A stretch of 64,000 nucleotides of DNA from Lyophyllum atratum (taxonomy: Eukaryota; Basidiomycota; Agaricomycetes; Agaricales; Lyophyllaceae), in the NCBI GenBank assembly GCA_014905825.1, contig JACGCN010000022.1, positions 62,001 through 126,000 on the forward strand. The letters are read 5' to 3'. This document shows, in pieces, positions 6,586 through 32,504 of the stretch. The translations under genes and the position numbers were made by a program. A model generated the notes under the pieces. It worked only from the letters and a program-made list of their open reading frames with translations. It made no database searches and was not told the origin of the DNA. Each line of letters begins with the position of its first letter. The first letter of the stretch is position 1.

Positions 6586-6751
6586 AGGTGCACTGGACGG
6601 GGGCTGCACCGGTCAAACGGGTAGAGAAGGGGAAGATGCTAAGGGGTTGCCATTTGACTTGAATATTTATCAGGATAACACATATGAATGTTGTTGAGCA
6701 GGTTGCGGGAAAGGTCTGAAGAGCCGTGAACCTCATGACAGATCAGGTGAT
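6586..6751 (+). pseudogene. Duplicated 3' fragment of the membrane protein gene
   Basis: This is the second copy of 4259-4447. It still encodes a relic of the membrane gene's last residues (KVHWTGAAP), then diverges. It contains no start or complete ORF. It would have lain directly upstream of F-box copy 2 before the Helitron inserted at its right end. Confidence 0.75.
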
Positions 6752-6780
6752 TGGGGAGCTTGCTCCCCTATATCTTGCTA
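6752..6780 (+). repeat. Helitron 5' terminus with perfect hairpin
   Basis: TGGGGAGCTTGCTCCCC folds into a 7-bp stem with a TT loop. Its first 12 bases are the reverse complement of the Helitron 3' end at 32386-32397. An inverted copy of this terminus ends at 15778. Confidence 0.7.
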
Positions 6781-7467
6781 CCGACCCAAAATGCAGATGA
6801 TTGGTAAGCGTCGCTGGTTTTGTTCCTGTTTGTCTTTTGAGGACCCCGTGAGAATTTCAGCGCAGCGCGCAGCGCAAGCCGCAACCTATCGAGCGCCATT
6901 GCGGTGCTCGCCGGCGGCGTTTGAATCTGAGATGAACCTTAACGCGTGTCCACGCATCAACGCGATCTGTCAAAAACGTCGCGCGCCGTTTTCTCGGTGA
7001 CTCTTGGCTACATTTGGGCTTGCTACTGCTTCTGAGACTGCTCGGCACATTTCTGCTTTTGAGGACCCTGAAATCAACTATATAGCGCACTAAGAGGTTG
7101 CCAATTGTGACTTCTTGTCCATTGGCATTTAGTGAAGTCCAACCTCTCAGTCCCAGTTTGCTGAGGCTCCAGGACCTCTCTCACTCAACGGTGTCAGGAG
7201 CTTTCAGTACCTTTTACTGCCTCCCTTGACACTTCCACCTGCCTAGCAGAAAAGGGGTGTATCAGGAGTTGCTATAAGCTTTGGATTAATTTCCCCTGAA
7301 CATTGTCTTGCGGCGTGTTGAAATTTGGTGACTCTTTGGTTGAATAGCAGGGGACACGGGTTCAACACCTGTTTAGGCTTATCTGTGGCTCTCTGGCTTT
7401 CTCTGGACTATGCCTGGCGGATCTGATAATCCGCTTTTGTCTGCTGCGAAGAAATTGCGAAAGGTCG

Positions 7468-7560
7468 CAGCCCAGGCGAAGAGACGTGCAGAAGACGTCG
7501 CAGCCCAGGCAAAGAGACGTGCAGAAAACGTCGCAGCCCAGGCAAAGAGACGCGGAAAAA
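7468..7560 (+). repeat. 33-bp tandem repeat in RepHel N-terminus
   Basis: Almost three copies of a 33-bp unit encode AAQAKRRAE-D/N-V. An inverted copy lies in the right arm near 14970-15063. The unit is basic and could form a nuclear-targeting or nucleic-acid-binding tail. Confidence 0.7.
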
Positions 7561-9551
7561 GACGCGAAGTACCAATCCCCGGTATGTCTACTCTGTATAT
7601 TTAGAAACCCGGTTAGTTGATATAAGAATTTTAGGACCCTCTCCTGTAGTACCAAATTCCTCCCTAGATCATGCGCCAGATGATTTCTCCCCTTCACGTA
7701 CGTTCACATCTGCCAAATATCATGAATAGAACTGATGCCTTTTCAGTTCCTGATTTAGTCATGCCGCCTCAGCCTGCTGGGGCTGGACCGTCTAGAATCC
7801 AGTTAACACCTGCTGCTGATTCCCTCACACTATCACAAATTTTGAACGTCACCCATATATCTACCCCTCCTGCTCCGTCTCCCGATACATCGCCTGCTGC
7901 TGCATTTCCTTTTCCGCGTACTAAAGGTGGTGGTCGTAAGTCTCTTTCAACATTTCTAATTGTAAATAGTTAGTAATTTCACTTTGAAGCCGCCCTCACT
8001 CCTAGAAGCACTGGTCGTCGTCAGAATTGCCAGCGCACACCTGTAACTCCCACATCACGTGAAGTTCAACGTAAACGAACTCGTATCACTATTCTGGCTA
8101 CTCCTCCATCTGTTGGCGTACGACATTTGATGTCCCAAGATGTTGATATGCAAGACCAATCTGATGATGAAATGCTTGAATTACGTCCTCAACGATTATT
8201 CCAATTCGCACAAGTCCCAGACCCTGCCCAGGCCGCTTTTTCTGATGTTTTTGGTTCTATTCCCCCTCCAATGCCTCCTCCTGCACCCCAGCCATTTCCT
8301 GTTCCAAACCTCAACAATCACATACCTGCACAGATTGTTTCTCGTAGTCGCTTCCGCGTTAGAGAGCATCGTGGTACTCGAGGCAGAGATGTTCATCCGC
8401 TTAACTCTCGCCTTTTGTGGTGCACCAAATCTAGTCATTGGGTCTCTTTGGATGTATTTGGTCTACAAATGCAATGTGCACGTTGTAGAACAAGAGACAA
8501 TGCTGCTGCTCGTCGTCGGAGAGCAGAAGCTGCTGCTGCACAAATTCAACACGAACTCGACAATCTAGACAATCCTCAGCCTCCTCAGCCTTCACCTCCA
8601 CCTCCTCAGCCTCCTCAGCCTCCACCTCCACCTCCATCTCCACCTCCTCCACCTCCTCCACCACCTCCTCCACCACCACCTCCTCCTCCTCTCCATAACA
8701 TTGACCCACTTTCTGAACCTGCTGTATCAGCAGAGGACAAGGCACTACTTGCTATCGTACGGGAGAAACTCATGGATATAAGGATGGAGCGTTGTAATCA
8801 GTGCCATGAGAAGTGGTTTGATCTCAACGTCGTGCAGGGAGTCTGTACAAAGTGCAAAAAAGATGACAAGTTCAAACCGGTGAACAAGATGTTTCCGGGA
8901 ATGCCTCCACCACACTTGCCTGAGCTTACACAGATGGAAGAGATGCTCATTTCTCCGGTTCACGCATTAATTCAGCTATGGCAAGTGCGTGGTGGCCAAT
9001 TCAAGTACACTGGTCATATATGCAACTTTCCTCGAGAGAATGCAGTCCTCCATGCCAGACTCCCCTTGCTTCCTGAAGAGTGCGATATCATCATTCTGCG
9101 ACGCTCGGGAACAGAGGAGCAAACAAATCAAGCCATCTATCAGGATTTCCGAGTTCGCCGGCGGAATATTGAGGCATGGCTGCGTTATCTGCAGACTTCA
9201 CACCCTACATTCCGTGATGGATCTGTTGAAGTCGATTATGGTAGACTTGCTCAACTACCAGAGGATAACTCTGTTCATGGTCAATTGCGGAGCATCGAGC
9301 AACGAGACTTGGAGGATCCAGCTGCTCAAGATAATGGTCCTCCAGAAGGGGAGGGAGGAGAGGATCCTGTGAATAATGAGGAACCGGTCTTCTCACGTGG
9401 ATTTGTGCCCAATGTGCAGGCTAGATCTACGGAACTAGAGCAATTGAATGCAGCTGCATTAAACGACGACCAACCAATTATTCTCACAATGCCTGAGATT
9501 CGTGGAACCCCCATCAACGAGCATTCAGGTCGTGCCATCGCGATAGACGCC

Positions 9552-9629
9552 CTTCACTGCAGCGACTACAAACTCGATGGAGGGGTGTTAGACTTCTTAT
9601 CCTGGATGAGAAATCCATGGTGGGACGTG
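9552..9629 (+). repeat. 78-bp helicase-domain scar, left copy
   Basis: This segment matches 17947-18024 of the helicase region, which includes part of Walker B. It is joined on its left to the N-terminal coding region and on its right to inverted helicase-linker sequence. The reverse copy is at 12901-12978. Confidence 0.85.
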
Positions 9630-11995
9630 CCATCATTTGCGCACAACTTCTTGAAGTAGGCCATGACCTGAAGGAAGACAAGTCTTTGCTCTGCTTTGAG
9701 ATTGGCATAGTCCACCTCTGGAAGAATCTGAACATCATCATTGGGGGATTCCTTGACTTGATTCTCTAGCCACTTGGACGCTTCCTTGATGATTTCGCCA
9801 GATGGAGCACCCGCATGCCAGTCGTACTCGATGTCCATATCTCGTAAGCCCAAGTTTCCCAAGTTAGACTCTACAACTTGGTTTGGAGCCCGAGCCGCCT
9901 CTCTCATCCAGTCAGCGCGATAATCCTCCTCAACATCTCCAGGGACAGATTCAGAATCTGACTCTTCTTCATCAACCTCGTCAGATATGAGGGGGAGTGT
10001 GTCGTCCGAGTGCACATGGTTTTCGTCTAAGCAGTGGTCATGATAAGCGTCTTTCCAAGTAAGACAACCTTGAAGAAGCTCCTCAGGTTCCTTGAAGGGG
10101 TGATTAAGAATCATGCGTGCATAGCAGTATTTCTCGTAAGAGTCCTCGTCGTCCTTGTTTGGGCGGTAGCGTGGCCAGACATTGACAATGTATGGTTGGG
10201 CACCACGTGAACCACGTTTGTAAACAGTGTTTCCTCTCCAGTCCCAATTAGCACCAAAATCCAGGATAGTGATGTTGGCAGCAGGGTGTGGGTTATGTGG
10301 ATTGGTAGGAGTTGGAGCAACCATAGGACGCCTTTTGTATCGTTCCAGAAGTCCTACTCGTGCCGTACGTGAATTTTCAAAGTCGACCACTTCACTGGCA
10401 TCCGGAGAAACGCAAAGGGAACGAATTTGTCGAGAGGAGTGAATGAGTCTACAACCCAAAAGTATATGGCATGTTTCTTGGCCTGAAATGTCACGTTCAG
10501 CGACAAAGGAGGAGAGCATTTTCTGGTATGCAATTCCAGCAGGATCTGTATCCTGTAGCCGAGAAATTGCAGTTTGAAGTGATTTGTCATGTGAGGATGA
10601 TGTAGATTCGCCTTTACTGGCATACTTTGCAACATATGCAATGACAGCTTCGCGGTTGATGACTGGGCGGAAATCAATATTGGCCCTCCAACCCAAGATA
10701 AATCCAGCATTGTAAGAGTTCAGAAGGGGATCGTTTCGGCGAGTGTGGAGTTCAGCAAAATCCCGAGTAGCCTCCTTTGCAAATGCAGAGTCCTCCCTAC
10801 ATTCCTTTGGAAAGCCAAAACGACAAAAGGTTTCATCTGACTCTTTTTTCCGTCTTTCACAATAACCGGGAGTACAGTGAGTGTGTCGTTGCAAGCGATT
10901 GAGCATTTCTGCAAGTTCCAATTTGGTATCCTCAAGTGTAGTGAAAAGCCGTGCGGATGGGTGAATTGCTGCAGGAGGACATGTCGTATCAGGATGCCAA
11001 GTGGATACATGCTGGTCCCAGAAGTTGATGAAATTCTGCAAGTCCACCGGATTGGAAGTATCGAGAGTCTCTATCTGAGGTGCATCCTCCAACCAAAGAA
11101 ATCCATGAATGTGACTGCTTCCACGATGCTGCCACTCATATCTCCACCAGTAGTCCTTGACTTTGAACTTTGGTTTGACGTAATATTCAAAGAATATCTG
11201 CCACCGCTTCTGGAAGTAGTATCCAGCAATAGCCGGATTCTCGTTGAGATCCTTCATGCGTGTCCGATAAGCAGCCGCATCTTCTCCCTGCTCGGGATCA
11301 TAGTTGGGCATGTGCTGGTGCATGTCTGGCCACTGGATATCAGCTGATGAAGCAGTGAAGAAGACATGAGGAGATTTGCATTCTGGGGATCGTATTTGAC
11401 CAATGAGCTCCTGCTGTGCCTTCTGCCAGAAAGGTTTAGATCCAGGTAGTTTGTCACCAGCACGAGAGACACGATTTGCAAGTCCTTGTGCATTGTCAGA
11501 TTCAAGCATTTCACGTATATCCTCAACAGTGAGCTGGCGATCCTCCCTATGTGTAGTCAAGTACCATGATGATGCCTTTTTAGCTGCCACGCGCATAACG
11601 GTATTCAGTGCCCAATATCGAAAGCGGGGATGGCGTGCAAAGTGGCCTCCATCGAGACGGATGAGATGTGCTGCCCATTCTTCCATTGTAACATTAATAT
11701 CCCGTGGCTGGGTAATATCTGCTTCACCAGTACAAAAGAGTGTCGGAAAGGCGTCTATCGCGATGGCACGACCTGAATGCTCGTTGATGGGGGTTCCACG
11801 AATCTCAGGCATTGTGAGAATAATTGGTTGGTCGTCGTTTAATGCAGCTGCATTCAATTGCTCTAGTTCCGTAGATCTAGCCTGCACATTGGGCACAAAT
11901 CCACGTGAGAAGACCGGTTCCTCATTATTCACAGGATCCTCTCCTCCCTCCCCTTCTGGAGGACCATTATCTTGAGCAGCTGGATCCTCCAAGTC
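9630..11995 (-). pseudogene. RepHel middle fragment with HUH Rep domain, copy B (inverted)
   Basis: On the minus strand this is a continuous piece of the RepHel gene, from the acidic EDPAAQDNGPPEGEGGED region through the Rep domain to the linker just before the helicase (ending CANDG). It is the only place that keeps the roughly 200 bases (about 11550-11755) joining the N-terminal part to the Rep part; that stretch includes GEADITQPRDINVTMEEWAAHL. It has the HUH motif (SSHIHGFLWL) and the two-tyrosine motif AYVAKYASK. It has no start codon and no helicase, so it cannot make a working transposase. It covers the palindrome spacer and part of the left arm. Confidence 0.85.
10535..11995. repeat. 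Spacer of the giant inverted repeat (1,461 bp)
   Basis: This is the unpaired centre between the two arms. In sequence it is inverted RepHel coding DNA, and most of it is repeated in forward orientation within 15779-16796. The joint at 11995/11996 switches from inverted sequence (ending in the RepHel GAGGATCC region) to forward sequence matching 16797 onward. Confidence 0.85.
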
Positions 11996-12900
11996 ATTGC
12001 ATACCAGAAAATGCTCTCCTCCTTTGTCGCTGAACGTGACATTTCAGGCCAAGAAACATGCCATATACTTTTGGGTTGTAGACTCATTCACTCCTCTCGA
12101 CAAATTCGTTCCCTTTGCGTTTCTCCGGATGCCAGTGAAGTGGTCGACTTTGAAAATTCACGTACGGCACGAGTAGGACTTCTGGAACGATACAAAAGGC
12201 GTCCTATGGTTGCTCCAACTCCTACCAATCCACATAACCCACACCCTGCTGCCAACATCACTATCCTGGATTTTGGTGCTAATTGGGACTGGAGAGGAAA
12301 CACTGTTTACAAACGTGGTTCACGTGGTGCCCAACCATACATTGTCAATGTCTGGCCACGCTACCGCCCAAACAAGGACGACGAGGACTCTTACGAGAAA
12401 TACTGCTATGCACGCATGATTCTTAATCACCCCTTCAAGGAACCTGAGGAGCTTCTTCAAGGTTGTCTTACTTGGAAAGACGCTTATCATGACCACTGCT
12501 TAGACGAAAACCATGTGCACTCGGACGACACACTCCCCCTCATATCTGACGAGGTTGATGAAGAAGAGTCAGATTCTGAATCTGTCCCTGGAGATGTTGA
12601 GGAGGATTATCGCGCTGACTGGATGAGAGAGGCGGCTCGGGCTCCAAACCAAGTTGTAGAGTCTAACTTGGGAAACTTGGGCTTACGAGATATGGACATC
12701 GAGTACGACTGGCATGCGGGTGCTCCATCTGGCGAAATCATCAAGGAAGCGTCCAAGTGGCTAGAGAATCAAGTCAAGGAATCCCCCAATGATGATGTTC
12801 AGATTCTTCCAGAGGTGGACTATGCCAATCTCAAAGCAGAGCAAAGACTTGTCTTCCTTCAGGTCATGGCCTACTTCAAGAAGTTGTGCGCAAATGATGG
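11996..12900 (+). pseudogene. RepHel linker fragment, copy C
   Basis: This is a forward copy of 16797-17701 (constant offset of 4801) that encodes the segment from YQKMLSSFVAERD to CANDG, between the Rep and helicase domains. It is open throughout but is flanked by inverted sequence on both sides and has no domain boundaries of its own. Confidence 0.85.
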
Positions 12901-15120
12901 CACGTCCCACCATGGATTTCTCATCCAGGATAAGAAGTCTAACACCCCTCCATCGAGTTTGTAGTCGCTGCAGTGAAGGGCGTCTATCGCGATGGCACGA
13001 CCTGAATGCTCGTTGATGGGGGTTCCACGAATCTCAGGCATTGTGAGAATAATTGGTTGGTCGTCGTTTAATGCAGCTGCATTCAATTGCTCTAGTTCCG
13101 TAGATCTAGCCTGCACATTGGGCACAAATCCACGTGAGAAGACCGGTTCCTCATTATTCACAGGATCCTCTCCTCCCTCCCCTTCTGGAGGACCATTATC
13201 TTGAGCAGCTGGATCCTCCAAGTCTCGTTGCTCGATGCTCCGCAATTGACCATGAACAGAGTTATCCTCTGGTAGTTGAGCAAGTCTACCATAATCGACT
13301 TCAACAGATCCATCACGGAATGTAGGGTGTGAAGTCTGCAGATAACGCAGCCATGCCTCAATATTCCGCCGGCGAACTCGGAAATCCTGATAGATGGCTT
13401 GATTTGTTTGCTCCTCTGTTCCCGAGCGTCGCAGAATGATGATATCGCACTCTTCAGGAAGCAAGGGGAGTCTGGCATGGAGGACTGCATTCTCTCGAGG
13501 AAAGTTGCATATATGACCAGTGTACTTGAATTGGCCACCACGCACTTGCCATAGCTGAATTAATGCGTGAACCGGAGAAATGAGCATCTCTTCCATCTGT
13601 GTAAGCTCAGGCAAGTGTGGTGGAGGCATTCCCGGAAACATCTTGTTCACCGGTTTGAACTTGTCATCTTTTTTGCACTTTGTACAGACTCCCTGCACGA
13701 CGTTGAGATCAAACCACTTCTCATGGCACTGATTACAACGCTCCATCCTTATATCCATGAGTTTCTCCCGTACGATAGCAAGTAGTGCCTTGTCCTCTGC
13801 TGATACAGCAGGTTCAGAAAGTGGGTCAATGTTATGGAGAGGAGGAGGAGGTGGTGGTGGAGGAGGTGGTGGAGGAGGTGGAGGAGGTGGAGATGGAGGT
13901 GGAGGTGGAGGCTGAGGAGGCTGAGGAGGTGGAGGTGAAGGCTGAGGAGGCTGAGGATTGTCTAGATTGTCGAGTTCGTGTTGAATTTGTGCAGCAGCAG
14001 CTTCTGCTCTCCGACGACGAGCAGCAGCATTGTCTCTTGTTCTACAACGTGCACATTGCATTTGTAGACCAAATACATCCAAAGAGACCCAATGACTAGA
14101 TTTGGTGCACCACAAAAGGCGAGAGTTAAGCGGATGAACATCTCTGCCTCGAGTACCACGATGCTCTCTAACGCGGAAGCGACTACGAGAAACAATCTGT
14201 GCAGGTATGTGATTGTTGAGGTTTGGAACAGGAAATGGCTGGGGTGCAGGAGGAGGCATTGGAGGGGGAATAGAACCAAAAACATCAGAAAAAGCGGCCT
14301 GGGCAGGGTCTGGGACTTGTGCGAATTGGAATAATCGTTGAGGACGTAATTCAAGCATTTCATCATCAGATTGGTCTTGCATATCAACATCTTGGGACAT
14401 CAAATGTCGTACGCCAACAGATGGAGGAGTAGCCAGAATAGTGATACGAGTTCGTTTACGTTGAACTTCACGTGATGTGGGAGTTACAGGTGTGCGCTGG
14501 CAATTCTGACGACGACCAGTGCTTCTAGGAGTGAGGGCGGCTTCAAAGTGAAATTACTAACTATTTACAATTAGAAATGTTGAAAGAGACTTACGACCAC
14601 CACCTTTAGTACGCGGAAAAGGAAATGCAGCAGCAGGCGATGTATCGGGAGACGGAGCAGGAGGGGTAGATATATGGGTGACGTTCAAAATTTGTGATAG
14701 TGTGAGGGAATCAGCAGCAGGTGTTAACTGGATTCTAGACGGTCCAGCCCCAGCAGGCTGAGGCGGCATGACTAAATCAGGAACTGAAAAGGCATCAGTT
14801 CTATTCATGATATTTGGCAGATGTGAACGTACGTGAAGGGGAGAAATCATCTGGCGCATGATCTAGGGAGGAATTTGGTACTACAGGAGAGGGTCCTAAA
14901 ATTCTTATATCAACTAACCGGGTTTCTAAATATACAGAGTAGACATACCGGGGATTGGTACTTCGCGTCTTTTTCCGCGTCTCTTTGCCTGGGCTGCGAC
15001 GTTTTCTGCACGTCTCTTTGCCTGGGCTGCGACGTCTTCTGCACGTCTCTTCGCCTGGGCTGCGACCTTTCGCAATTTCTTCGCAGCAGACAAAAGCGGA
15101 TTATCAGATCCGCCAGGCAT
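12871..15120 (-). pseudogene. RepHel N-terminal fragment, copy D (inverted)
   Basis: This is the mirror image of copy A, with the same exons, proline tract, CxxC pairs, 78-bp helicase scar and stop. Both arms share the same deletion joint, so copy D was made from copy A, or the reverse, after that joint had formed. Confidence 0.8.
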
Positions 15121-15778
15121 AGTCCAGAGAAAGCCAGAGAGCCACAGATAAGCCTAAACAGGTGTTGAACCCGTGTCCCCTGCTATTCAACCAAAGAGTC
15201 ACCAAATTTCAACACGCCGCAAGACAATGTTCAGGGGAAATTAATCCAAAGCTTATAGCAACTCCTGATACACCCCTTTTCTGCTAGGCAGGTGGAAGTG
15301 TCAAGGGAGGCAGTAAAAGGTACTGAAAGCTCCTGACACCGTTGAGTGAGAGAGGTCCTGGAGCCTCAGCAAACTGGGACTGAGAGGTTGGACTTCACTA
15401 AATGCCAATGGACAAGAAGTCACAATTGGCAACCTCTTAGTGCGCTATATAGTTGATTTCAGGGTCCTCAAAAGCAGAAATGTGCCGAGCAGTCTCAGAA
15501 GCAGTAGCAAGCCCAAATGTAGCCAAGAGTCACCGAGAAAACGGCGCGCGACGTTTTTGACAGATCGCGTTGATGCGTGGACACGCGTTAAGGTTCATCT
15601 CAGATTCAAACGCCGCCGGCGAGCACCGCAATGGCGCTCGATAGGTTGCGGCTTGCGCTGCGCGCTGCGCTGAAATTCTCACGGGGTCCTCAAAAGACAA
15701 ACAGGAACAAAACCAGCGACGCTTACCAATCATCTGCATTTTGGGTCGGTAGCAAGATATAGGGGAGCAAGCTCCCCA

Positions 15779-18700
15779 ACATAGGGAGGATCGCCAGCTC
15801 ACTGTTGAGGATATACGTGAAATGCTTGAATCTGACAATGCACAAGGACTTGCAAATCGTGTCTCTCGTGCTGGTGACAAACTACCTGGATCTAAACCTT
15901 TCTGGCAGAAGGCACAGCAGGAGCTCATTGGTCAAATACGATCCCCAGAATGCAAATCTCCTCATGTCTTCTTCACTGCTTCATCAGCTGATATCCAGTG
16001 GCCAGACATGCACCAGCACATGCCCAACTATGATCCCGAGCAGGGAGAAGATGCGGCTGCTTATCGGACACGCATGAAGGATCTCAACGAGAATCCGGCT
16101 ATTGCTGGATACTACTTCCAGAAGCGGTGGCAGATATTCTTTGAATATTACGTCAAACCAAAGTTCAAAGTCAAGGACTACTGGTGGAGATATGAGTGGC
16201 AGCATCGTGGAAGCAGTCACATTCATGGATTTCTTTGGTTGGAGGATGCACCTCAGATAGAGACTCTCGATACTTCCAATCCGGTGGACTTGCAGAATTT
16301 CATCAACTTCTGGGACCAGCATGTATCCACTTGGCATCCTGATACGACATGTCCTCCTGCAGCAATTCACCCATCCGCACGGCTTTTCACTACACTTGAG
16401 GATACCAAATTGGAACTTGCAGAAATGCTCAATCGCTTGCAACGACACACTCACTGTACTCCCGGTTATTGTGAAAGACGGAAAAAAGAGTCAGATGAAA
16501 CCTTTTGTCGTTTTGGCTTTCCAAAGGAATGTAGGGAGGACTCTGCATTTGCAAAGGAGGCTACTCGGGATTTTGCTGAACTCCACACTCGCCGAAACGA
16601 TCCCCTTCTGAACTCTTACAATGCTGGATTTATCTTGGGTTGGAGGGCCAATATTGATTTCCGCCCAGTCATCAACCGCGAAGCTGTCATTGCATATGTT
16701 GCAAAGTATGCCAGTAAAGGCGAATCTACATCATCCTCACATGACAAATCACTTCAAACTGCAATTTCTCGGCTACAGGATACAGATCCTGCTGGAATTG
16801 CATACCAGAAAATGCTCTCCTCCTTTGTCGCTGAACGTGACATTTCAGGCCAAGAAACATGCCATATACTTTTGGGTTGTAGACTCATTCACTCCTCTCG
16901 ACAAATTCGTTCCCTTTGCGTTTCTCCGGATGCCAGTGAAGTGGTCGACTTTGAAAATTCACGTACGGCACGAGTAGGACTTCTGGAACGATACAAAAGG
17001 CGTCCTATGGTTGCTCCAACTCCTACCAATCCACATAACCCACACCCTGCTGCCAACATCACTATCCTGGATTTTGGTGCTAATTGGGACTGGAGAGGAA
17101 ACACTGTTTACAAACGTGGTTCACGTGGTGCCCAACCATACATTGTCAATGTCTGGCCACGCTACCGCCCAAACAAGGACGACGAGGACTCTTACGAGAA
17201 ATACTGCTATGCACGCATGATTCTTAATCACCCCTTCAAGGAACCTGAGGAGCTTCTTCAAGGTTGTCTTACTTGGAAAGACGCTTATCATGACCACTGC
17301 TTAGACGAAAACCATGTGCACTCGGACGACACACTCCCCCTCATATCTGACGAGGTTGATGAAGAAGAGTCAGATTCTGAATCTGTCCCTGGAGATGTTG
17401 AGGAGGATTATCGCGCTGACTGGATGAGAGAGGCGGCTCGGGCTCCAAACCAAGTTGTAGAGTCTAACTTGGGAAACTTGGGCTTACGAGATATGGACAT
17501 CGAGTACGACTGGCATGCGGGTGCTCCATCTGGCGAAATCATCAAGGAAGCGTCCAAGTGGCTAGAGAATCAAGTCAAGGAATCCCCCAATGATGATGTT
17601 CAGATTCTTCCAGAGGTGGACTATGCCAATCTCAAAGCAGAGCAAAGACTTGTCTTCCTTCAGGTCATGGCCTACTTCAAGAAGTTGTGCGCAAATGATG
17701 GAGATCCTAAACCACCACCTCTGCGCATCAATGTTGACGGAACTGCTGGAACTGGAAAGTCATTTCTGATATGGGCTATATCCACTGCACTTCGGGAAAT
17801 GTTTGCGGATCAGCCACAAGCAAGGGATCCAGTTGTTCGACTCGCACCAACCGGAATCTCTGCCTTTGGAATTCGAGGCTGGACTATAAACTTTGGCTTA
17901 TCCATTCCAGTGAAGGAGAAACAAGAATTCCAGCAGTTGAAAGACTCTTCACTGCAGCGACTACAAACTCGATGGAGGGGTGTTAGACTTCTTATCCTGG
18001 ATGAGAAATCCATGGTGGGACGTGCTCAAATGGGTCGGGCAGACAGGCGTTTACGACAAGTCATTCCAGCTGCATCTGATGATGCATTGGGTGGGCTTCC
18101 TGCTATATTCTTTGGAGACTTTGCCCAGCTTCCACCAATTGGCGATACTCCTCTCTATTCAACCAAGACTTCTGATGGACGTCGGTCAGGCCTTGCCTCA
18201 GAAGGGCGCCGAGTCTTTGAATCCTTTCAACAGTCCATTACTCTCAGTCGTATTTTCCGCCAAGAAGGAGAGGATCCTGAGCAGATTAGGTTTCGAGATG
18301 CACTACTTCGACTCCGCACTTACTCAACAACTCAGGAGGACTATGACCTCTTGTCTACCCGATTCTGGGATCGTCTCACTCCTGAGGATCATACTCGATT
18401 CAATGAAGTCTTACATCTGCTACCAACTCGAGCCGCAGTCCAAGAGTGCAATAAGCATCGCTTAGCTGGAATTGGAAAGCCCGTGATTCGATGCGAGGCC
18501 AAACACAACAATAGTGCTGCAAAAAAGGCTTCAGAGGAAGATGCTGATGGATTAGAGCCTATGATTCTGCTGGCTGAAGGTGCACGAGTGATGATCACTC
18601 GTAATCTCTGGACTTCCAAAGGTACTTAGTCTGCTTTCTCTTCCATCTGCCAATTTCTAATAGGTGTTCAGGACTAGTCAACGGATGCCAGGGTGTGGTC

Positions 18701-19213
18701 AAAAAGATATGGTATCATCCTCAATCAAACCCAAAGCAGCACCACCTTCCTGCAGTAGTATTTGTCGAATGTCCAGGATATTCTGGTGAGTATGATCCAG
18801 TACACTTTAGAACATCACCTCATACATAGATTAGGTCCCCAAACACCTGGCTGGCATGGCATTGATCCATCATGGGTTCCGGTAACTCCTGTCACCGCTC
18901 GTTGGGAGGACAAATCCGGAATGCAACTTTCACGCACTCAGCTTCCATTGGCATTGGCCTGGGCAATTACCATACACAAGAGCCAGGGTCTCACATTGTC
19001 AGACGTTGTCATTGACCTGGGACCAAAGGACTTCTCATCTGGACTATCATTCGTTGCAATTTCGCGCGTCAAAAATTTGAAGGGTTTGGCGTTCCGTACA
19101 CATTTCGGTATGGGTCGGCTGCAGCGTGGTCAAGAAACAGAGTCGATGAAAATGTTGCGAGAGGATAATAGTAGACGAGAGGCACTTGGATTCACTCTAA
19201 ACACATATGGCAT
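15779..19213 (+). pseudogene. RepHel C-terminal fragment, copy E: Rep plus Pif1-like helicase
   Basis: Exons 15779-18621, 18672-18785 and 18835-19213 are open. They begin inside the gene at the HREDRQLTVED region, with no upstream start; the first ATG is at 15822. The Rep domain carries SSHIHGFLWL (HUH) near 16215 and AYVAKYASK (catalytic tyrosines) near 16690. The helicase has GTAGTGKS (Walker A, about 17743), LLILDEKSMVG (Walker B), FGDFAQLPPIGD, LSRIFRQ and ALAWAITIHKSQGLTLS, so all superfamily-1 Pif1 motifs are present. This is the element's only complete helicase. The frame is interrupted at 19213 by the chromovirus and would continue at 32300-32330, adding MDLSEYVFND before a stop. The N-terminal third is missing because of the palindrome joint. 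Confidence 0.85.
19209..19213. repeat. Target-site duplication GGCAT, left
   Basis: The five bases GGCAT stand directly before the 5' LTR and recur at 32295-32299 directly after the 3' LTR, as expected for Ty3/gypsy integration. Confidence 0.9.
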
Positions 19214-19665
19214 TGTGACGGAGGTATTCAGTATCCACTCCTACTTCACTTCTTCCATCGCGCGCGTGCCCGGGCCGGCCGTATTTGTACATATTTACGT
19301 TGACTTTGTATATTCGTTGCATCGCGAGTCTCTTAGAGACTCGCACTAATACTACTATCATCTCGGATCCTATCTACGCTCTACGCTAGGGAACCGCGAT
19401 CGGTGCGACGGCTCGACCTCCCCGCCAGCCACGGGGCCCAGTGTTGGGTCACAACACGCCTCGCTCAGGCTAACAGAGCCCCTCTGCCGGATCTGTCGAT
19501 CCCAGGCAACTACTAGCTCGGACGACCCAGATGCAGCGCCCCACTCTCGGTGGCAGCAGCTCTGGGTCCTGAGAGGTTCGAGCGCCCCTCTGCGGCGGCT
19601 CCCTCTCACCTCTTCCTCACGGACTTCACTCACGCGAGAAGCCCATTTCGGATGGCCGCATCACA
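19214..19665 (+). repeat. 5' LTR (452 bp)
   Basis: It starts TGTGACGG and ends CGCATCACA. A TATA-like TTTGTATATT at about 19301 and, just downstream, a perfect 9-bp stem hairpin (GCGAGTCTC / GAGACTCGC, 19324-19344) could mark promoter and RNA-structure signals. It matches 31843-32294. Confidence 0.95.
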
Positions 19666-19666
19666 A

Positions 19667-19680
19667 TGGTGGGGGCACCG
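19667..19680 (+). promoter_or_regulatory. Candidate tRNA primer-binding site
   Basis: TGGTGGGGGCACCG begins one base after the 5' LTR. Primer-binding sites start with TGG, the complement of the tRNA CCA end. I cannot name the tRNA. Confidence 0.55.
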
Positions 19681-20023
19681 CGGACTTCACCCAAGCGTGC
19701 TGAAGTCTCTTCACTCTCTACCTTTCGACGGCTCAACCTTTCGCCGTCTCGTCATCATGTTTCAAAATCCTTCAAATTCAGTCTGCTGCTTCACATGCTG
19801 GATCTCTCGGCTATCCTCGCCAAAGCGCGATTCGATCGATAAGGCTGCTTAGCGCCCCAAAATCACATCGATAACGACGGCTGCTATCAGCGCCATCCCG
19901 CTCCGCGCCTTGATCTATCTGCCTACGTTACACCCGAAGGTCCGGAAGATCCAACCCCTATCCTAAATCCTATATCTCCCGGAGTCGCTCTGCTTCGACT
20001 CTACCCCTCGACATCTCTACGAT
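19681..20023 (+). other. Retrotransposon leader (5' untranslated region)
   Basis: This noncoding sequence lies between the primer-binding site and the Gag-Pol start. It should carry dimerisation and packaging signals, but none can be named from sequence. Confidence 0.5.
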
Positions 20024-23000
20024 ATGCCGCCGAAACGCTTTGTATCCAATCCGTCGAACAGCCCACCTGGAGCAGCGCCTGCCGCTGCCCAGAAACGTTC
20101 ATCCAGTCGACTGGCGACTCCCTCGGGAGGCGCCCCCTCTTCGATTTCCTCTCCCACCACGGGGGGCACGGCAATCGCGGAGCCGGTCCCTGCGAAACCA
20201 GCTGCCTCTAAGGCGCAGGGTAAAGCGACGTCTTCGGCGCTCAACCGATCCCCTACCATCGAGAACGAACCCGACTTGGAGGGTTCTCCCCCAGGCCCAA
20301 CTCTACCGTTGCAAGGACCTCTGTTGGAGCTAGAAACCGCTTTCGCTCCCCCTCCCTCCGTGACCGTAGGGCGCGTCATCGTCGACGCTGCCCCGTTGGA
20401 CCCCTCGTTGGATCTCCCTCCCGTCATCTCTGGCGCTTCGAGCTATCGCTCAGCTGACGAACGTTCCGAATCGGCCGTTCCGTCGTTAAGCTTCCTGACG
20501 GAACCGACACCCCCTCCCGAAGGTCGAAGCTCAGTCGCTGACTCCGACGTGACGGAGCGTCCTCGAGCACCGCGGCTATACGATACCCATCCCTTCATAT
20601 TCAACGGGATTCCCGCTCTAGCCAGCATCAAGTTCAGGAACGAGCCAATCAGTTGTTCCAACTACCGATTCCATCCAGTCCTCGACCCAGCTAAGGACTA
20701 CGACCCTATTACTCGATACGGGGGCGTAGATGGTCGGCTCCCGGGTCGAAGCCGTACGGAGTCGAACATAGTTCGCGAAATCATCATTCGTGCGACACGG
20801 CCCCATCGTGATCTCTTGTGGGTCAACTTGGATGGTGCCATAAAAACCTTTCAAGGTCACAAGGTCTCCACTACCGATTTAGTCCGATACGGTACCGGAA
20901 CCGACACTATGTATTCGTTGAATAAGCCCTTGCTCAAAGAGGCCACTCAGACGATCTTAGCGGTCCATCAAGTCTTAGACGCCTTCGCCGACTTTCTCTA
21001 CCAAGGACCGAAGAATCGATTCCGTTTGGATCCTGACTTTATGTTCATCCGGAGCATGGGTTGGAATTCGCACAGAACGGAGATTGTCCTCACCTTTCAC
21101 GCTCTCCAGCGCCGTGTGACTGTGGCTGCTATACATATCGGGAACTTCTTCAAGAGTTTCGACCGTATGTTCTTACGACCGGACGACTTAGACTCTGTAA
21201 GCTCCCTCGACTCGACAAACTTCTCATTGAGATCTGCTTTCGGCACTGCGTCCCCGAGAACCGAGCTGCGCAAGCTGGTGACTCGACCAGACTACCGAGT
21301 CGCCTCTGATCACCCTCTAGCCGCTGCCCAGCGAGAGTTTCTCAACGGAGATCCTGAATACGCAGCTGGAGTATACTACCACCACCGCGCCCGATCCACT
21401 CGGAACCCATCTCCCCAACGATCTTCCGTCGAGTCCGACCTCACTTCTATCTCTGAAGACATTAGGGGTAATATAGACGCTGCGACTTCCGACTACGTCC
21501 CTTCTATCTCATCTGCGTTGGCGAATCGAAACCTTCGATTTGATCTTCCAGATTCTATCTCAAGCATTACTCGGGACCATGCCATATCGACTCTACCAGG
21601 AGTCGGCTCGATCTCGAGCTTTGGGAGACAAGGCTCATCCATCGCCGCTCCCCCTTCGTCTGTCGCTGCTCCGACTACTGCGGGCTCGGGCGATCCCGCC
21701 TTGCAGCCTGGGGGGCCATTGTCGATGCAACCTCCCGCTTCTATGGACACAATGCGGAATTTACCAGCGTCTTTCGCGGTTAACGCGACTCAGATCCCTG
21801 CTCCTACGAATTGGACTAGTTATTCGTACCAGACCGCTCCTCACGTAGCCCCTTCCAACTCTACCAAGGACCCTAACGGCGGTCCTCCAGATGGAGGAAG
21901 CGCTGGTTTACCCGTAGGTGGCGCTCCAGGAGGAGCTGCCCCGGGAAACGATCCGAGCGGTAATGGAGGCGGCGGAGGCGGCGGAGGCAACGGAGGACCC
22001 CCCGGAGGAGGCGCTCCCTTTGGCGGAGCTGCCCCAGGGGGCAATCCTGGAGGACCCCCCGGAGGAGACCCTGGAAACGGAGGTTTCCCAGGAGGTGGTG
22101 CTCCTGGTGGAGGCGGAGCCCCTGGAGGAGGTGGTGCAGGAGGAGGAGGTGGCGCACCTGGTGGAGGAGGACTTCCTCATCAAAACTTTAACAACGATTA
22201 TGTCGAAGAATGGCAGCTCAATCACAAGCTGAATATCTCGGTCCTGCCTTCTTGGGACGGCAAGGGAGCTTCGGCTCTTAACTACCTCAGTTCCATGGCC
22301 AAATTAGCGGGATTGGGACAGAAAATGCGGGAAGGTTTAGCGCAGCTGGCACCATACAAATGGTCGGAGCGCGCTCAGTCCTGGTGGGACAACTTACCCG
22401 AAGATAACCGTACCTACCTATCCCAAGATTGGAACGTCATGCTACTCGGCATTCGAGCGCAATTCCTCGATGAAAATTGGATCAAGGAACGAACCTTCGA
22501 ATTCGAGGAAATGAAGTTCCGGCAGAAGGGTCACGAACGCGAATTCCCCTTGGACTTCATTCAGCGTCGTATTCGCTATCATTCCTTCCTGTTCCCCGAC
22601 GACCCCGACGGAACCAAGGCCGTCTCTCGCATCCTCCGCACCAAACCTACTGAATGGGACTCTATTCTCAATGAGCGAGTATGCCCCTCTATATTCACTC
22701 TCATGGCTACAGCTAGCCGAATGGCAGAAGTCCTGGTTGGCGGGTGGACACTTGCGGAGCGCATGCGCGCACCCACCTTCTATCGTGGCGGTCGCCGAGA
22801 TCGCAACGCCCACAACGTGGAGATTCAAGCCATGGACGATCTACTCGGCGACGCTACGCCTGCCTTTATGCTGGAAAACGATGATGATCGTGATAATGAG
22901 TACTTGGACGACGGGGAGAAGGAGGCCCATCCCGTACGAGCTAGGGGTTCCAAGCCCAATAAAGAGAAAAGACCTTGGCCGGAAGGCAAAGTCGTCGACG

Positions 23001-26000
23001 GTTATCATTTCGCACGCGATGACAGCGTATCGAGCGCCCGACCCCCTAATGGCGGCTGCTATATTTGCACAAGCACTCGGCACTTCGCTCGAGACTGCCC
23101 TCACTACGGGAAATGGGATTCGTTACGATCAGCTAACTTGATTACCGTTGATATCGACCCCGCCGACTTGGCTCAGCAGGATAGAGCGTATGTAGCTATG
23201 CTAGTTGAATCTAAGGCCCCTGCTTCCGCTTATGCCGCGCGTGAACCTGAGACCAACGAACCTAAATATGTCTATCTTGCTGAGGCGTTCCCCAACGCAT
23301 ACCCTGGAGCCAATCGCAACTTTAGGCGGCGAGTTATGTTCGCTGTCCGTAAGGAAGAGAAGAAATTACGTTGGCGCTATGAAATCCCTACGGATAGCGA
23401 CGAAAAACACCTACCCCCTCCTCCTTACGTCGAGATCGTCGAGGCTCGCAAAATCCGTTCCCTTCCAGACGGCTATGGATCTCTAGGATCTAAGGCTCTA
23501 CATATGAAAGTCCACGTCGGAGCGACGGATCAGGCTCCTATCCAAGGACGTCTTGATTCCGGCGCTGACATTACTCTCATGTCTGAAGAATACTGGGCGT
23601 CGCTTCCAGGTCTCCCGAAGCCTAAGGAAGGCCTTCGAATCAAATTATACCACCTTACTGGAAACGCTCGAGTCCTAGGATACATTAAGACCAAGATTTA
23701 CGCTGAATCTATGGACAAGCGAATGGTCTCGTTTGACCTCGAAGCGTACATCGTTCGAGACATGAACGTCCCGTTGCTACTAGGCGAAGATTTCCAGACC
23801 GCCTACGAACTCGGACTTACGCGACACGTAACTGGCCATAGCGAAGTGCTTGTGGGAGACTCGGACTTGATCATTCCCGCTTCCTCCGCTCAAGCTGTCG
23901 ACCTAGGCTTTGAAATAAGGAAGGCCTACACCACTCAGTCCTTCATACGTTCGAAGACGGTACGGCGCAGCAATGTGCGCGCCAAAGGATTTGGTCATAC
24001 TGATCCCCCTGTCGTGGCAGCTGAGGATCGGCTCATTACTGCTGAATCGGTGCATAATGTTCCGGTCGAAGCGCCCTTCGGAGACAGGAAGGAATGGATC
24101 GTCGAAAAGGTTATCATCGGCGACCCGAACTTGTCAGTTATGGCCGCGCCGACAACTTGGATTACGTCTGACGCTCCATATATCCCCATCGCCAACCCCT
24201 CCAAGACTCCCTGGTACATCAGGAAGGGGGACGTGGTGGGTTACCTTAAGGATCCCAGCTCCTTTGCGGACGCACCCGCTACACCGGAGGAATGGGATAA
24301 ATACAATGCCTCCGCCGAAGCTCTGAAGTCGGTGATTGAAGGTTCTCTGCGCGCGCAAGACTTGGGTACTGCTGACGCTGGATCCCCTTCTGACGATAAA
24401 TTGGAGGGCGACGAGAACTGGGGCCCTAAAACGACGGCTCTGCCGGATGAGAGGATGGAAGGCGACATCGCCGACCTGGTAAATCTGGGCCCGGATGTGC
24501 CGGAAGACGTGAAGCCGAAGCTCTTTGACGTCCTCCGCAAAAACAAACTGGCTTTCGGTCTAGACGGACGCCTGGGGCATGTCGATGCCAAGGTGGAAGT
24601 TCCTCTACAACCTGGGACGCAACCTATCTCCGTCCCAATGTACGGTGCTTCGCCCGCCAAACGCGAGGTCATCGAGAAGCAAGTCAATGCTTGGTTCGAA
24701 GCGGGGGTCATCGAACCCTCGCGCAGCCCCTGGGGATTCCCCGTCGTAGTCGTTTATCGCAACGGAAAGCCTCGACTCGTGGTCGATTACCGCAAACTCA
24801 ATGCGAAGACCATACCGGATGAATTCCCCATTCCCAGGCAAGCTGAAATCATCCAAGCTCTGTCTGGCGCCCAGGTTATGTCGGTCTTCGACGCCTTGGC
24901 TGGCTTCACGCAACTGGAGATGGCTGACGAGGCTAAACCGCGCACGGCATTCCGCTGTCATCTGGGACTCTATCAATTCAAACGCATGCCGTTCGGTCTG
25001 CGTAATGGTCCTTCTATATTCCAGCGCATTATGCAAGGCGTGCTGGCTCCATTCTTGTGGCTTTTCACATTGGTTTATATTGACGACATTGTGGTGTTCT
25101 CCAAATCCTGGGACGAACATATTGTGCACCTCGACCAGGTGTTGGGCGCCATTGCTGACGCCGGTATCACACTGTCCCCACCCAAGTGTTTCGTCGGTTA
25201 CTCTTCTATCCTCCTCCTTGGTCAAAAGGTTTCACGCCTAGGGTTATCGACGCATCAGGAGAAAGTTGCAGCGATCATTGATCTCGCGCGACCGCGCTCC
25301 ATTCCGGAGCTGCAGAAATTCCTGGGCATGGTGGTTTATTTCTCGTCTTACGTTCCCTTCTATTCATTCTTGGCCGCCCCCCTCTTCGCTCTCCTCAAGA
25401 AGGGTGCGCGCTTTACTTGGGAAGCGGCGCACGAAATTGCCTTTTCCCAGATTAAGGACGCGCTCGCCAGCGCTCCCGTGTTGGGACACCCGGAACGGGG
25501 TCAGCCGTACCGCCTGTACACTGACGCCTCAGATTTTGCGCTGGGCGCTAGCCTTCAGCAGGTTCAGTCTATGGCGGTGGCTGACCTCAAGGGCACTCCC
25601 ATGTACGATCGGCTGTCGAAAGCCTGGGTCGCGGGGGTGGACCTTCCTAGTCTAGTCCCCTCCCTTTCGAAGGACGTCGATGAAGGCTTGGGCACTCGGC
25701 ACAAGTGGGGTACGACTCTGGACTCCACGACTGTGCGGGTGGAACGAGTGATCTGCTATTGGAGTCGGACCCTGTCCCAGGCTGAACGGAATTATAGCGC
25801 CACTGAGCGTGAGGCGCTCGGCGCTAAGGAGGCGTTGGTCAAGTTTCAGCCCTTCATTGAGGGCGAGACTGTTATTTTGGTTACGGATCACGCGGCGCTG
25901 CAGTGGGCGCGCGTATACGAGAACGCAAATCGGAGATTAGCTGCGTGGGGGGCTGTGTATGCGGCTTACCCTGGCCTTAAGATAGTGCATCGCCCAGGCC

Positions 26001-28057: not shown

Positions 28058-28502
28058 TGGGAAACTTGGGCGGAGTTTCAAAATTTGTGTTATCGATGGT
28101 CATCTCTCTCTCTTCTTCCTTTCCTTCACCCCACTACCTTATCGCGCCTATACCTACTCTACTACCCCTCTAAACTACCTGCGTGGCGGCGACTTGGTAG
28201 TTAACGCGTACCTTCGCGCTCTAACTAGTCCGAGGCGCCTTGTGGATTCGTTCCACCTCGCTACATCAAGAAAACCCGAGGAAGACGACCAGGATCGAAG
28301 GCGCGCCCTGCGGCGCGACACGACCTGAGGCGCTACTTAACCCTCGCCACAAAACTCCCGAAAACAATCTAAAAAAGTCGACCAGGATCAGAGGCGCGCC
28401 CAGAGGCGCGACTACGACCTGAGGCGCTACCCCACTTCAACGACAAAAAACAACTTCTATCGACTACCCTTCCCACTCCTTGCCTCTAAACAAAAAACGC
28501 TC
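28058..28502 (+). other. Structured intercistronic region between the two retrotransposon ORFs
   Basis: This 445-bp gap holds two imperfect direct repeats of about 51 bp (28286-28336 and 28379-28430). Each has the pattern CGACCAGGATC, then AGGCGCGCC facing GGCGCG, then GACCTGAGGCGCTAC. The GC-rich parts can fold into short hairpins. The region could serve initiation of the second ORF, splicing or RNA packaging. Confidence 0.6.
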
Positions 28503-31500
28503 ATGGCCCCCGAAGACTCCCGTCGATACACGGTCGCGAGGCTACGTAGCTTCAGCGGATACGACGACTCCCCGATCGTCGACGATTCCCTTACTTTCAA
28601 CCTTCCTCCGTTCAATCAGCATTCGGGACGAATCGTTGACCAACACCCCTCCGACCCTCTCATCCCTGCTTACGAGGTGTGGTCGCCGAACTCGGCGCAG
28701 CGTCCCTTTTACCCCGGGTTGCCTCCTCCTCACTTCGAGTCCCGAACTTTGCCCGACCGAGCGGTGCGACGTTTCGATGGCCATCTTGGACCCTTCGACT
28801 ATACCATGAATCCCCAGGTCCTGACCGCGTCCGTCTGGAGGGCCTTCATCCTTCGTCCCTCCGTCGGTTACGGAAAACGAGACGAGTACCCGGAGTACCG
28901 TTTCATGTACAAGGAATGGGAAGTCACCGAGGGACGTACACCTTACGGACCAAGTGGGGGCCATATCAAATTACCCTACATTGTTGAGCTCGAGTCTAGG
29001 CTCGCTCTATTGGATTCTCTCATCTTAGGCTGCTCGGAACTCGAGCTTACTTTTACGAACTTCTGGTCCCAGCGCCCTATTTTCCCTCACCCCGCCGCAA
29101 TCAACGACTTGCGCAGCGTGGTTACCTACGAAGACGCTGTAGACTTAGGAGTCGCGATTCAGCGCGGTCTGAAGGAGAAGGCTGCCTATCTCATATTCGC
29201 GAACCTATTGCTGGACTCGGGGTACCAACCAGCCGTCGATAAGCTTATGGTCGCAGAAATCCCGGCGGCAGATGATCGTTATCTTGGCGCCTTTATCAAC
29301 GGGGATCGACGGCAAGACGCTCTTTGGCTTCTCAGCCAGAGGGTACCTTGTTTCCTGGTTCATGCCTTGACGGATATGGAAAGCTGGTTAGCCACGGAGC
29401 CAGGGGTCTGTGGGACTTGGTGGGAAGGGACTGAGGCAGCGGGACTAGGGCCCTGGAACGGGTACGACGACATTGCGCTCCGTCTGAATTCGGTGGTACG
29501 TCCATATGTAGCTGCGATTATTCGCGCTAGGATACCATCCATTTCCGTCGAGGATCGAGAGCGATCGTCTTCGTCGAGGCAGGGGTGGACCGGAGAAACC
29601 ATCGGAATCCATGCCTCGCGACCCCCCCTTCCTCCGCGCGAGCCGTCCCCAATGATCGTCGACCCTCCTACCGCTGCACCCGCTATCCATCCGTCTCTAG
29701 CGGCCCATCCTCTCGACTATGTCGTTGTCGATCAGAACCGAATCCCCTGGCTGCGACCTCCCGTGGTTTTCGATTCTAGGGGCCTATCGGGACAATGGAC
29801 AAAGTGGCAGTTTGACGACCATGGTTCCCTTCAGGAGATGTCGAAACGAGCGGCAAAGGAGTTCGAGGTTGACGAAGACGGCGATTGGTTCTACGACCGC
29901 CATCTCAGGCGGGAGCTTTACATCCACCCGAGCCCCGTCCCTAAAGGCCTCATCTCCGCCCTCCAAACCTTTGGACGGCCGGCTCCGCGGGTAGCTTACC
30001 TGAATCCCTACGGTAAACAGGTAAAGGGATCGTACTGGATGTACCCCAAGCGCTTCGACGGCAAGGGGTTGGTGGGAAAGGTTTGCCCTACCCCAGAAAC
30101 CGATCCCGAGGACCCTAGTCGAACCCGAACGAATGACTTCCTGGTGGAATCTCTCCCGCTGCTGGAGGGACGTACGATTACCGCTGCGCCCCCCGTCCCT
30201 GTGGCTGCTCCTCCCGCGCTCGCTCCTGACTCCGGTGACCATTTCCCCCTTCCTCCAACGACGCCCTCCAGGGCTGTGGCGACTAGCCTTCGGACAGGCG
30301 CCGCCCGACGTCGCAAGGATTCCGGCGAAATTTCTTTGGGCAGCTCCCCGGAGCCAGAGAGCGAGGTCCCAACTTGTTACCTGATGACGTCGCCCTTCCC
30401 CATCTCAGTCGACTGGAACGTGGTGCGAGAGGCATTGATTGCCCTCACCTTATCCACCCCGGAGTCTATGATCTTGCGCGTTGATCGCTCTGCGACCCCG
30501 TCACTCCAAACGTTGTGGGTCACGCTGAATTCTCCGGAAGGTGCAGCTGCGCTCCGAAGTGCGCGCTTGTCGTCGATGGTCTCTCCGGAACTGGGGGGCG
30601 AGCTACACTGGGCGACGCTCGCTGACTTGCAGCAGGTGCGAAGTGCGGGAGGAGATAGCTGGACCCGCCCCTTCCCCTCCTTGCAGCCCGCGGCTCAGCT
30701 TACTCGAGAGGCGTCACCTCCTCCTGGGTCTCGTCGCCGAGCTGCCTCGCCATTGGCTGAACCGAGCCGGTCGCGCTGGAGAGGTCGGACACCGTCACCC
30801 GTCGGACGTCGTCGCTCGCCTACGCCACGTCGTCGTTCGCCTTCGCCTCCCCCGTTCCCGCGTCGTCGTTCGCCTTCACCACCTCCTTTCCGTCGCTTAG
30901 CCCCGGTTGCGCAGAGGCCTCGTCGCGCTGTCACCTCGCGACGTTGGTCCCCACCTCGGAGGGAGCGTAGCTTCGAACGAGGACGTTCGGATCGCGGCCG
31001 TATGGCTCCAATGGAGTCGATGGGATGGGGGGCATCCAGGCAATCGGATATGGCGCCTTGGACTCCTGCTCCGGCCCCCTTCTCCTCCCCCTCCCCGTCG
31101 CCTTACAGCCCCCTCGCCCCTCTCTGGTCTCAGCCTACGCCCGCGGAACCCGCTGTAGGCGTTCCTGTGACTTCCCAGGCTCCCCCTCCTTTGGGTACGC
31201 GCGAACACGCTGCCTTCATGGCGCAGGTGCTCATCGAGACGATGACCCGCATGGCTGCAGGCCCTCCCGCGGACCCCGGAGCTGCTCAAGCACCGGTGTT
31301 GCCTTCTTGGTGGCCGCAGCCTGGTAATGCCCCTCCCTCGGCGCCTGAGGATGTCCCTCCTTACGGGACCTTGGCTCCAGCGGCTCTGCCGCTCCCTGCC
31401 CCAAGTATCCCTCCGGTATTGGCGCCCTCGCTGCCTCCCGTGCTTCCTGGACCCGCTGGAACTGAGCCAGTTCCCTTGACTCGAAGGTTGAACATCGGGA

Positions 31501-31847: not shown

Positions 31848-32294
31848 CGGAGGTATTCAGTATCCACTCCTACTTCACTTCTTCCATCGCGCGCGTGCCC
31901 GGGCCGGCCGTATTTGTACATATTTACGTTGACTTTGTATATTCGTTGCATCGCGAGTCTCTTAGAGACTCGCACTAATACTACTATCATCTCGGATCCT
32001 ATCTACGCTCTACGCTAGGGAACCGCGATCGGTGCGACGGCTCGACCTCCCCGCCAGCCACGGGGCCCAGTGTTGGGTCACAACACGCCTCGCTCAGGCT
32101 AACAGAGCCCCTCTGCCGGATCTGTCGATCCCAGGCAACTACTAGCTCGGACGACCCAGATGCAGCGCCCCACTCTCGGTGGCAGCAGCTCTGGGTCCTG
32201 AGAGGTTCGAGCGCCCCTCTGCGGCGGCTCCCTCTCACCTCTTCCTCACGGACTTCACTCACGCGAGAAGCCCATTTCGGATGGCCGCATCACA
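31843..32294 (+). repeat. 3' LTR (452 bp)
   Basis: Same length and, by eye, same sequence as 19214-19665, with the same TGTGA and TCACA ends. It should supply the polyadenylation signal of the element. Confidence 0.95.
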
Positions 32295-32299
32295 GGCAT
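32295..32299. repeat. Target-site duplication GGCAT, right
   Basis: This is the second copy of the 5-bp target. Joining the two flanks here keeps the RepHel frame open through to the stop at 32328-32330. Confidence 0.9.
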
Positions 32300-32397
32300 G
32301 GATCTTAGTGAATATGTATTTAATGACTAAATTTGTATCTCTTCTAATGCACTCAGATAAACATTGCGTAAAGTAGTGGGATAAGGCAAGCTCCCCA
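32300..32397 (+). mobile_element. Helitron 3' end: last RepHel codons and terminus
   Basis: After the retrotransposon, the RepHel frame resumes for ten codons and stops with TAA at 32328-32330. The following 67 bp lead to GCAAGCTCCCCA, the reverse complement of the Helitron 5' end. The flank TTACGTAGG belongs to the host duplication unit. Confidence 0.75.
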
Positions 32398-32504
32398 TTA
32401 CGTAGGTGAGGTACTCACATACAAGACATATTTTTCTAACGCAGCTCCCTACGTCTGTTCGACCATTATGCCACATAGTTTCCCTTCAAGTCGCTCAGGA
32501 AATC

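Follow-up and report, generated by a model that had tools for sequence, protein, structure and literature searches.

How can a transposon come to carry, within its own chromosomal copy, a perfect mirror image of a large part of itself? We asked this of a locus in Lyophyllum atratum at which a Helitron contains a palindrome with multi-kilobase arms. The window, that is, the whole stretch of DNA analysed, is 64,000 bp long and comprises bases 62001-126000 of an 884-kb contig, and the genome searched amounts to 64.76 Mb in 151 contigs. A preliminary description of this DNA had placed the arms at 6752-10534 and 11996-15778, had found no mismatch between them by eye and had looked to a self-alignment of the window for their exact identity. 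Direct comparison showed that 0 of these 3,783 positions differed, with coordinates summing to 22530 throughout, and that the match gained one outer base, so that the arms (6751-10534 and 11996-15779) measure 3,784 bp each and are reverse complements without a single mismatch, an identity for which chance origin is excluded. The spacer of 1,461 bp that had been reported between them was borne out likewise (10535-11995).

Order of the blocks and their joints

The blocks were placed on native coordinates (h), for which the intact 6,557-bp copy of the same family served as reference. As listed in Table 1, the composite element reads h1>2792, h5158>5236, h4912>2547 (inverted), h4008>4912, h5236>5158 (inverted), h2792>1 (inverted) and h2990>6557. 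Every native base is thus represented, in one to three copies. The inverted identity is not confined to the arms, as 9630-11552 and 15779-17701 match in inverted orientation over 1,923 bp with 0 mismatches, extending past the interval 6752-15778, and the four other pairs of duplicated blocks that we compared besides the arms were all identical. A single difference that appeared between 9306-9555 and 11995-11746 came from an alignment overrunning the joint, and the true 246-bp blocks are identical.

Table 1. Blocks and features of the composite Helitron, in window positions
Feature	Position	Strand	Native coordinates and remarks
Left arm, S1	6751..9551	+	h1-2792; starts at the family 5' terminus after host TGA
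5' terminal hairpin GGGGAGCTTGCTCCCC	6753..6768	+	mirrored at 15762-15777
Filler S2, 79 bp	9552..9630	+	h5158-5236 of the helicase part, native orientation
Block S3	9630..11995	-	inverted h4912>2547
Inner left-arm part of S3	9630-10534	-	h4912>4008; remainder of S3 is the spacer
Spacer	10535..11995	-	h4007>2547; sole copy of h2793-2989 in the element
Right arm, S4	11996..12900	+	h4008>4912
Filler S5, 79 bp	12900..12978	-	mirror of S2, h5236>5158
Right arm, S6	12979..15779	-	h2792>1; ends on the element's 5' terminal base
Block S7	15779..19213	+	h2990>6424, remainder of the element
Rep/helicase ORF remnant	15753-18629		at block S7
LTR retrotransposon	19214..32294	+	about 13 kb, nested in the Helitron 3' part
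Helitron 3' end	32295..32431	+	to h6557; inner ATIR GCAAGCTCCCCA, hairpin GTGAG-GTA-CTCAC

Both arms had been said to contain the same internal deletion joint and the same 78-bp scar. The scar is indeed present in both (9552-9630 and 12900-12978) but is 79 bp long, and the joint, although common to both arms, combines a deletion with an inversion and is bridged by this fragment, which is identical to 17947-18025 in the helicase part. In each arm the sequence passes from native h2792 to h5158-5236 and from there to the opposite strand at h4912. Overlaps at the joints are 0 bp at J1a, 1 bp at J1b, 0 bp at J2 (11995/11996) and 1 bp at J4, which joins h1 to h2990 at 15779 within the transposase gene; a candidate 4-bp microhomology at J1a was absent on inspection of the joint. 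The earlier proposal, that the joints arose first and that one arm then served as template for the other, is upheld by the presence of the same joints in both and by their 0 differences.

Two simple layouts were rejected. A single copy-back giving a simple inverted duplication of one element does not fit, as both arms have the filler joint and the native h2792/2793 adjacency survives in neither, and a head-to-tail tandem of two elements or a read-through of a circle does not fit either, as 15779 joins h1 to h2990 and not to h6557. The nested retrotransposon has LTRs of 452 bp each with 0 differences and is flanked by a GGCAT target duplication (19209-19213/32295-32299). Missing from the preliminary description were the absence of any native loss, the block at 15779-17701, the point at which the right arm stops and this 13-kb retrotransposon.

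The host Helitron and its class

That the palindrome lies inside a Helitron, as had been described, was upheld by the protein domains, the family ends and the empty site. ORFs of the window matched Helitron_like_N (PF14214, 3e-30) and PIF1 (PF05970, 1.8e-19) in Pfam. Besides the window, the genome holds four close copies, on C46, C64, C100 and C130, and these are all collinear with each other, giving the native order. The copy on C46 is uninterrupted, extends over 6,557 bp from TTGGGGAGC to ACATAT and has an open frame of 1,540 aa from stop to stop; those on C100 and C130 are interrupted by insertions, and that on C64 is diverged over roughly its first 2.15 kb. With the 3' end as query we obtained 15 genome matches, of which five were at 99-100%, one for each close copy (n = 5). 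The native transposase gave 69 protein matches from 7,989 scored candidates, homologues with both domains among them; the five best overall showed 62-65% identity, and the seven of the 69 that carried an organism name were all fungal, the best of these named ones being from Sistotremastrum suecicum at 51% identity.

The element begins with TTGGGG and ends with ACATAT rather than with the canonical Helitron1 5' TC and 3' CTRR ends. It has the asymmetric terminal inverted repeats (ATIRs) of the Helitron2 group, with TGGGGAGCTTGC at h2-13 and its 12-bp reverse complement 34 bp inside the 3' terminus, together with the hairpins of that group at both ends; shuffled sequences folded too in 3 of 200 and 2 of 200 cases. 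The ends, the hairpins and the TNA|T site fit Helitron2-type fungal elements (PMC5148889). An endonuclease family, the Helentron trait, gave no match at E 0.001 in the four Helitron ORFs of the window that made up the scan.

Furthermore, of the 23 private C>T or G>A changes seen across the five copies, 18 fell at CpG, as compared with 16% of C and G positions (binomial about 8e-11, private changes being taken as derived, in the Helitron copies alone, and the count excluding gaps, sites with three or more states, h2793, the final 138 bases and, for C64, h1-2199). This CpG excess suggests that the Helitron family is methylated.

Insertion site, source and age of the duplicated blocks

At one paralogous stretch that lacks the element (L040), the two flanks are contiguous as GGTGA|TTTT, and at a second, 4256-5129 of the window, they align with a gap of one base at the site. 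Because these empty stretches align across both flanks, the composite occupies one Helitron site. The insertion took place at an A/T site without target-site duplication, as is expected of a Helitron, and the outer ends of the composite are the family ends at a clean site.

Two changes, at h3176 and h4093, are private to the window copy; every block spanning one of these positions carries the change, and 0 of the 4 other close copies do. Searches with the J1, J4 and J2 sequences gave 17, 20 and 13 genome matches, respectively; those that read through the joints numbered 2, 1 and 1, all of them in the window itself. One further match to the J4 query, at C67:537944-538048, continues 4 bases past the joint, into the flank at that place. 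Unrelated DNA of the window, used as query in a plasmid search, gave no match. Since the blocks are identical, the private changes recur and the joints are absent elsewhere in the assembly, it is likely that one copy supplied the duplicated blocks.

Had the duplicates formed at the start of the window copy's branch, about 3.5 differences would be expected among them and 0 were seen (P about 0.03, on a dating basis of 2 private changes in 6,557 bp), which is a weak hint of a late origin that gene conversion could mimic. None of the close copies is a donor with both private changes. These changes fit a rearrangement in place as well as one during transposition and do not decide between the two; as the four other close copies are without them, we lean slightly towards rearrangement in place, rather than on a transposition intermediate that later inserted.

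Origin of the palindrome

The right arm stops on the first base of the element (h1), and the left flank beyond it was not copied. Besides J4, 14 family 5' ends were matched and 12 of them could be placed, the window's left end included; all 12 follow TNA, and the two unplaced ones (C1, C42) are without the terminal motif. J4 is preceded by ATG, unlike the family target TNA|T. A canonical Rep insertion at J4 was considered and rejected, as ATG stands there in place of the target consensus TNA. A strand with a Rep-cut 5' end would account for both facts, the stop at h1 and the ATG context. This terminal-base argument comes from one locus: a scan for further inverted repeats of at least 80 bp (E 1e-10) over 44 sequences, made up of 40 fetched loci together with 4 joined regions and mostly from this Helitron family, found none in 43, and the sole match, L009, is a cut-out of the window palindrome itself.

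We propose that the palindrome is an aberrant rolling-circle product, made by template switches and by snap-back self-copying up to the Rep-cut 5' end, a proposal to which we give about an even chance of being right. Rep would nick at h1, and the new strand would run from h1>2792 to h5158>5236 and then to the opposite strand, h4912>2547, an order read directly from the DNA which template switching would produce. The strand would then fold back with a loop of 1,461 nt and, starting at h4008, copy itself outward across the same joints; the 0 differences and the mirrored filler are plain in the sequence, and the act of copying is what we infer from them. Copying would end at h1 either as the template ended there or as Rep held the 5' end. 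The end would finally be joined to h2990 with 1 bp of overlap, and the native remainder runs on to the normal 3' end. The anatomy is that of a snapback product, with h1 at both 6751 and 15779, arms of 3,784 bp and a spacer of 1,461 bp, and from it we infer intrastrand copying during Rep-driven replication. The rolling-circle model, in which the 5' end is nicked and a 5'-phosphotyrosine intermediate forms, has been used in discussing Helraiser, a reconstructed Helitron (PMC4778049).

Because the filler is mirrored, at least two stages are needed, a rearranged strand and then its copying; this is more than a single copy-back and counts against the snap-back reading. For the in-place version, Rep would also have to nick a second time at h1 and the break be resealed afterwards, because the nascent strand is there still joined to the left flank. 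We know of no experiment showing that a Helitron makes snap-back strands.

An unlikely alternative is antisense self-insertion at h2990 of a resident copy, followed by deletions, inversions and arm-to-arm gene conversion. Self-insertion, opposite orientation included, has been proposed for Helitrons of Fusarium oxysporum (PMC5148889), and here it would account for the exact terminus at J4. It is opposed by the ATG that J4 follows, as against TNA at all 12 placed 5' ends (two being unplaced), and by the lack of a second close 3' terminus, the five matches at 99-100% among the 15 to the 3' end being simply those of the five close copies. Moreover, the supposed insert has the private changes in common with the 3' block of the resident copy, and the left arm would have to lose the native h2792/2793 adjacency and acquire the mirrored joint.

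FoSTeS/MMBIR works by template switches with tiny microhomology, and the ODIRA model requires a short inverted repeat at the turning joint. A chromosomal replication error of such a kind without Rep, whether FoSTeS/MMBIR, ODIRA-like switching or a sister-chromatid fusion inside the repeat, also appears improbable to us. The filler DNA, the junctions of 0-1 bp and the gains without loss all speak for it, and switching between leading and lagging strands has been described as a source of inverted copy gains (PMC10766183, PMC4689423). However, chromosomal copying should have carried the mirror image into the left flank, which the stop at h1 contradicts, and a replication error leaves unexplained why the arm ends at the element's first base. 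By inspection, the J1, J2 and J4 sequences were also without an evident short inverted repeat that turns at the joint.

Fold-back chimeric reads yield inverted copies. Perfect arm identity in a structure known from the assembly alone would suit an assembly or fold-back-read artefact, which we hold to be improbable: a fold-back read would mirror the left flank too, whereas here the copy stops at h1 and h2990>6557 follows to the proper 3' end; an assembler would need to have met four distinct joints with overlaps of at most 1 bp in the reads, and joints of 0-1 bp overlap are not where assemblers join sequences by overlap; and 43 of the 44 scanned sequences are without such inverted repeats, so the assembly is not full of them there.

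Possible silencing role

Each arm has a copy of the 5' leader, which lies ahead of the open frame (h1-1217), and both copies point inward, so that transcription from either side would give a perfect hairpin RNA of 3.8 kb against the Rep gene. One may speculate, and we hold it to be a doubtful idea, that the palindrome acts as a 'Helitron killer', an integrated snap-back genome that silences sibling Helitrons as Mu killer does MuDR. If so, the hairpin RNA would feed the host Argonaute/RdRP pathway and silence all siblings, and rolling-circle transposons would, like AAV, generate their own interfering genomes. Six-frame searches of the genome, counted exon by exon at E 0.001, gave 26 Piwi (PF02171) and 36 RdRP (PF05183) matches.

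Comparison with known systems

A limited literature search brought up no Helitron described as having long palindromic arms. Helitron self-insertions, tandem copies and composite ends are already known, and composites of Fusarium oxysporum have several 5' ends and one 3' end (PMC5148889). FoHeli1 and FoHeli2 of that fungus share with the present family the end hairpins, ATIRs with an inner 3' copy, a TNAT-like target, a Rep plus helicase protein and recent activity; the 5' duplications in Fusarium differ, being typically short (<200 bp) and ascribed to self-insertion, and no multi-kb palindrome is noted in the excerpts of that study used here (PMC5148889). A head-to-head pair in maize consists of dissimilar Helitrons and is different from the palindrome described here (PMC2267711). 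FoSTeS/MMBIR products, like ODIRA inverted copy gains (PMC10766183, PMC4689423), share with the present element template switches, tiny microhomology and inverted extra copies without loss, but differ in that the mirror image here ends exactly on the transposon terminus.

Helitron replication in vivo is unsettled, and a palindrome ending at the expected Rep cut may be a fossil of otherwise hidden strand events; it suggests a single strand, its 5' end either free or bound by Rep, that can be copied back. AAV replication begins with a nick made by Rep. Both symmetric and asymmetric snapback genomes occur in AAV populations, the asymmetric ones with an unpaired loop, and the likeness to the present element includes a self-complementary product of a Rep replicator, the same terminus at both ends, the form with an unpaired loop, and a 5'-side promoter with partial rep sequence (PMC8235507). 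The AAV genomes are viral and extrachromosomal, whereas here we have a chromosomal transposon copy with its native 3' half; the parallel would be one in the way of working, and membership of the snapback class is proposed from the anatomy.

Maize Mu killer shares with the palindrome a partial inverted duplication of a transposase gene and two copies of one element end, and a hairpin RNA of ~4 kb has been proposed for it; silencing of MuDR has been demonstrated, while the hairpin mechanism is disputed (PMC3440606). Mu killer derives from MuDR, which is not a rolling-circle element (PMC3440606), and the likeness is one of layout. The snap-back proposed here would offer a way in which a transposon could duplicate its transposase gene in inverted orientation; in maize, a locus of this kind silences MuDR.

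Close copies and shorter relatives of the Helitron

Comparison of the five close Helitron copies, namely that in the window and those on contigs C46, C64, C100 and C130 of the same genome, revealed that 18 of the 23 C>T/G>A changes private to a single copy were located at CpG, and this bias, as read from sequence, is a methylation-type signature. The window copy carried the fewest private changes (2), followed by C130 (8), C64 (10, counted from h2200 of the native element onwards), C100 (13) and C46 (14). Against the reference copy C46, the C64 copy showed only ~90% identity in its initial ~2.15 kb but almost complete identity downstream, with the changeover near h2150-2280 in reference coordinates, and this diverged-then-near-identical pattern suggests that subfamilies recombined in it.

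Nine further loci (L031-L039) are likely non-autonomous Helitron derivatives which have mainly the ends in common; sized solely from the spacing of 5' and 3' matches, they measured ~0.2-1.1 kb, with one of ~6 kb. Both L038 (C1:1596146) and L039 (C42:3978) kept the inner 5' sequence and lacked the TTGGGGAGC terminus. Since one and the same upstream sequence is common to both, their original 5' end seems to have been replaced or lost.

At joint J4, where the right palindrome arm meets h2990, a near-repeat was noticed (window 15758-15795), with ATAGGGGAG immediately inside the arm end and ATAGGGAG immediately past the joint.

Nested and flanking sequences

The LTR retrotransposon lodged in the window Helitron was judged Gypsy-like by eye and is likely a very young insertion. 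The two gene copies, one on each side of the Helitron insertion, were 82% identical in DNA, and the left copy scored 24.0 bits against Pfam F-box-like, slightly below the cut-off of 24.3 bits. More relatives of this gene were found at 58.5 kb in the window and in L040, a paralogous stretch without the Helitron.

Features and their positions (window coordinates unless a contig is named)
Feature	Position	Remarks
Gene copy, left of insertion	4477-6214	Pairs with right copy
Gene copy, right of insertion	32471-34227	Pairs with left copy
LTR retrotransposon	19214-32294	Within Helitron 3' part; LTRs 452 bp, identical; TSD GGCAT
Putative chimeric Helitron	G000 C64:2302579-2309158	Loci L018, L024
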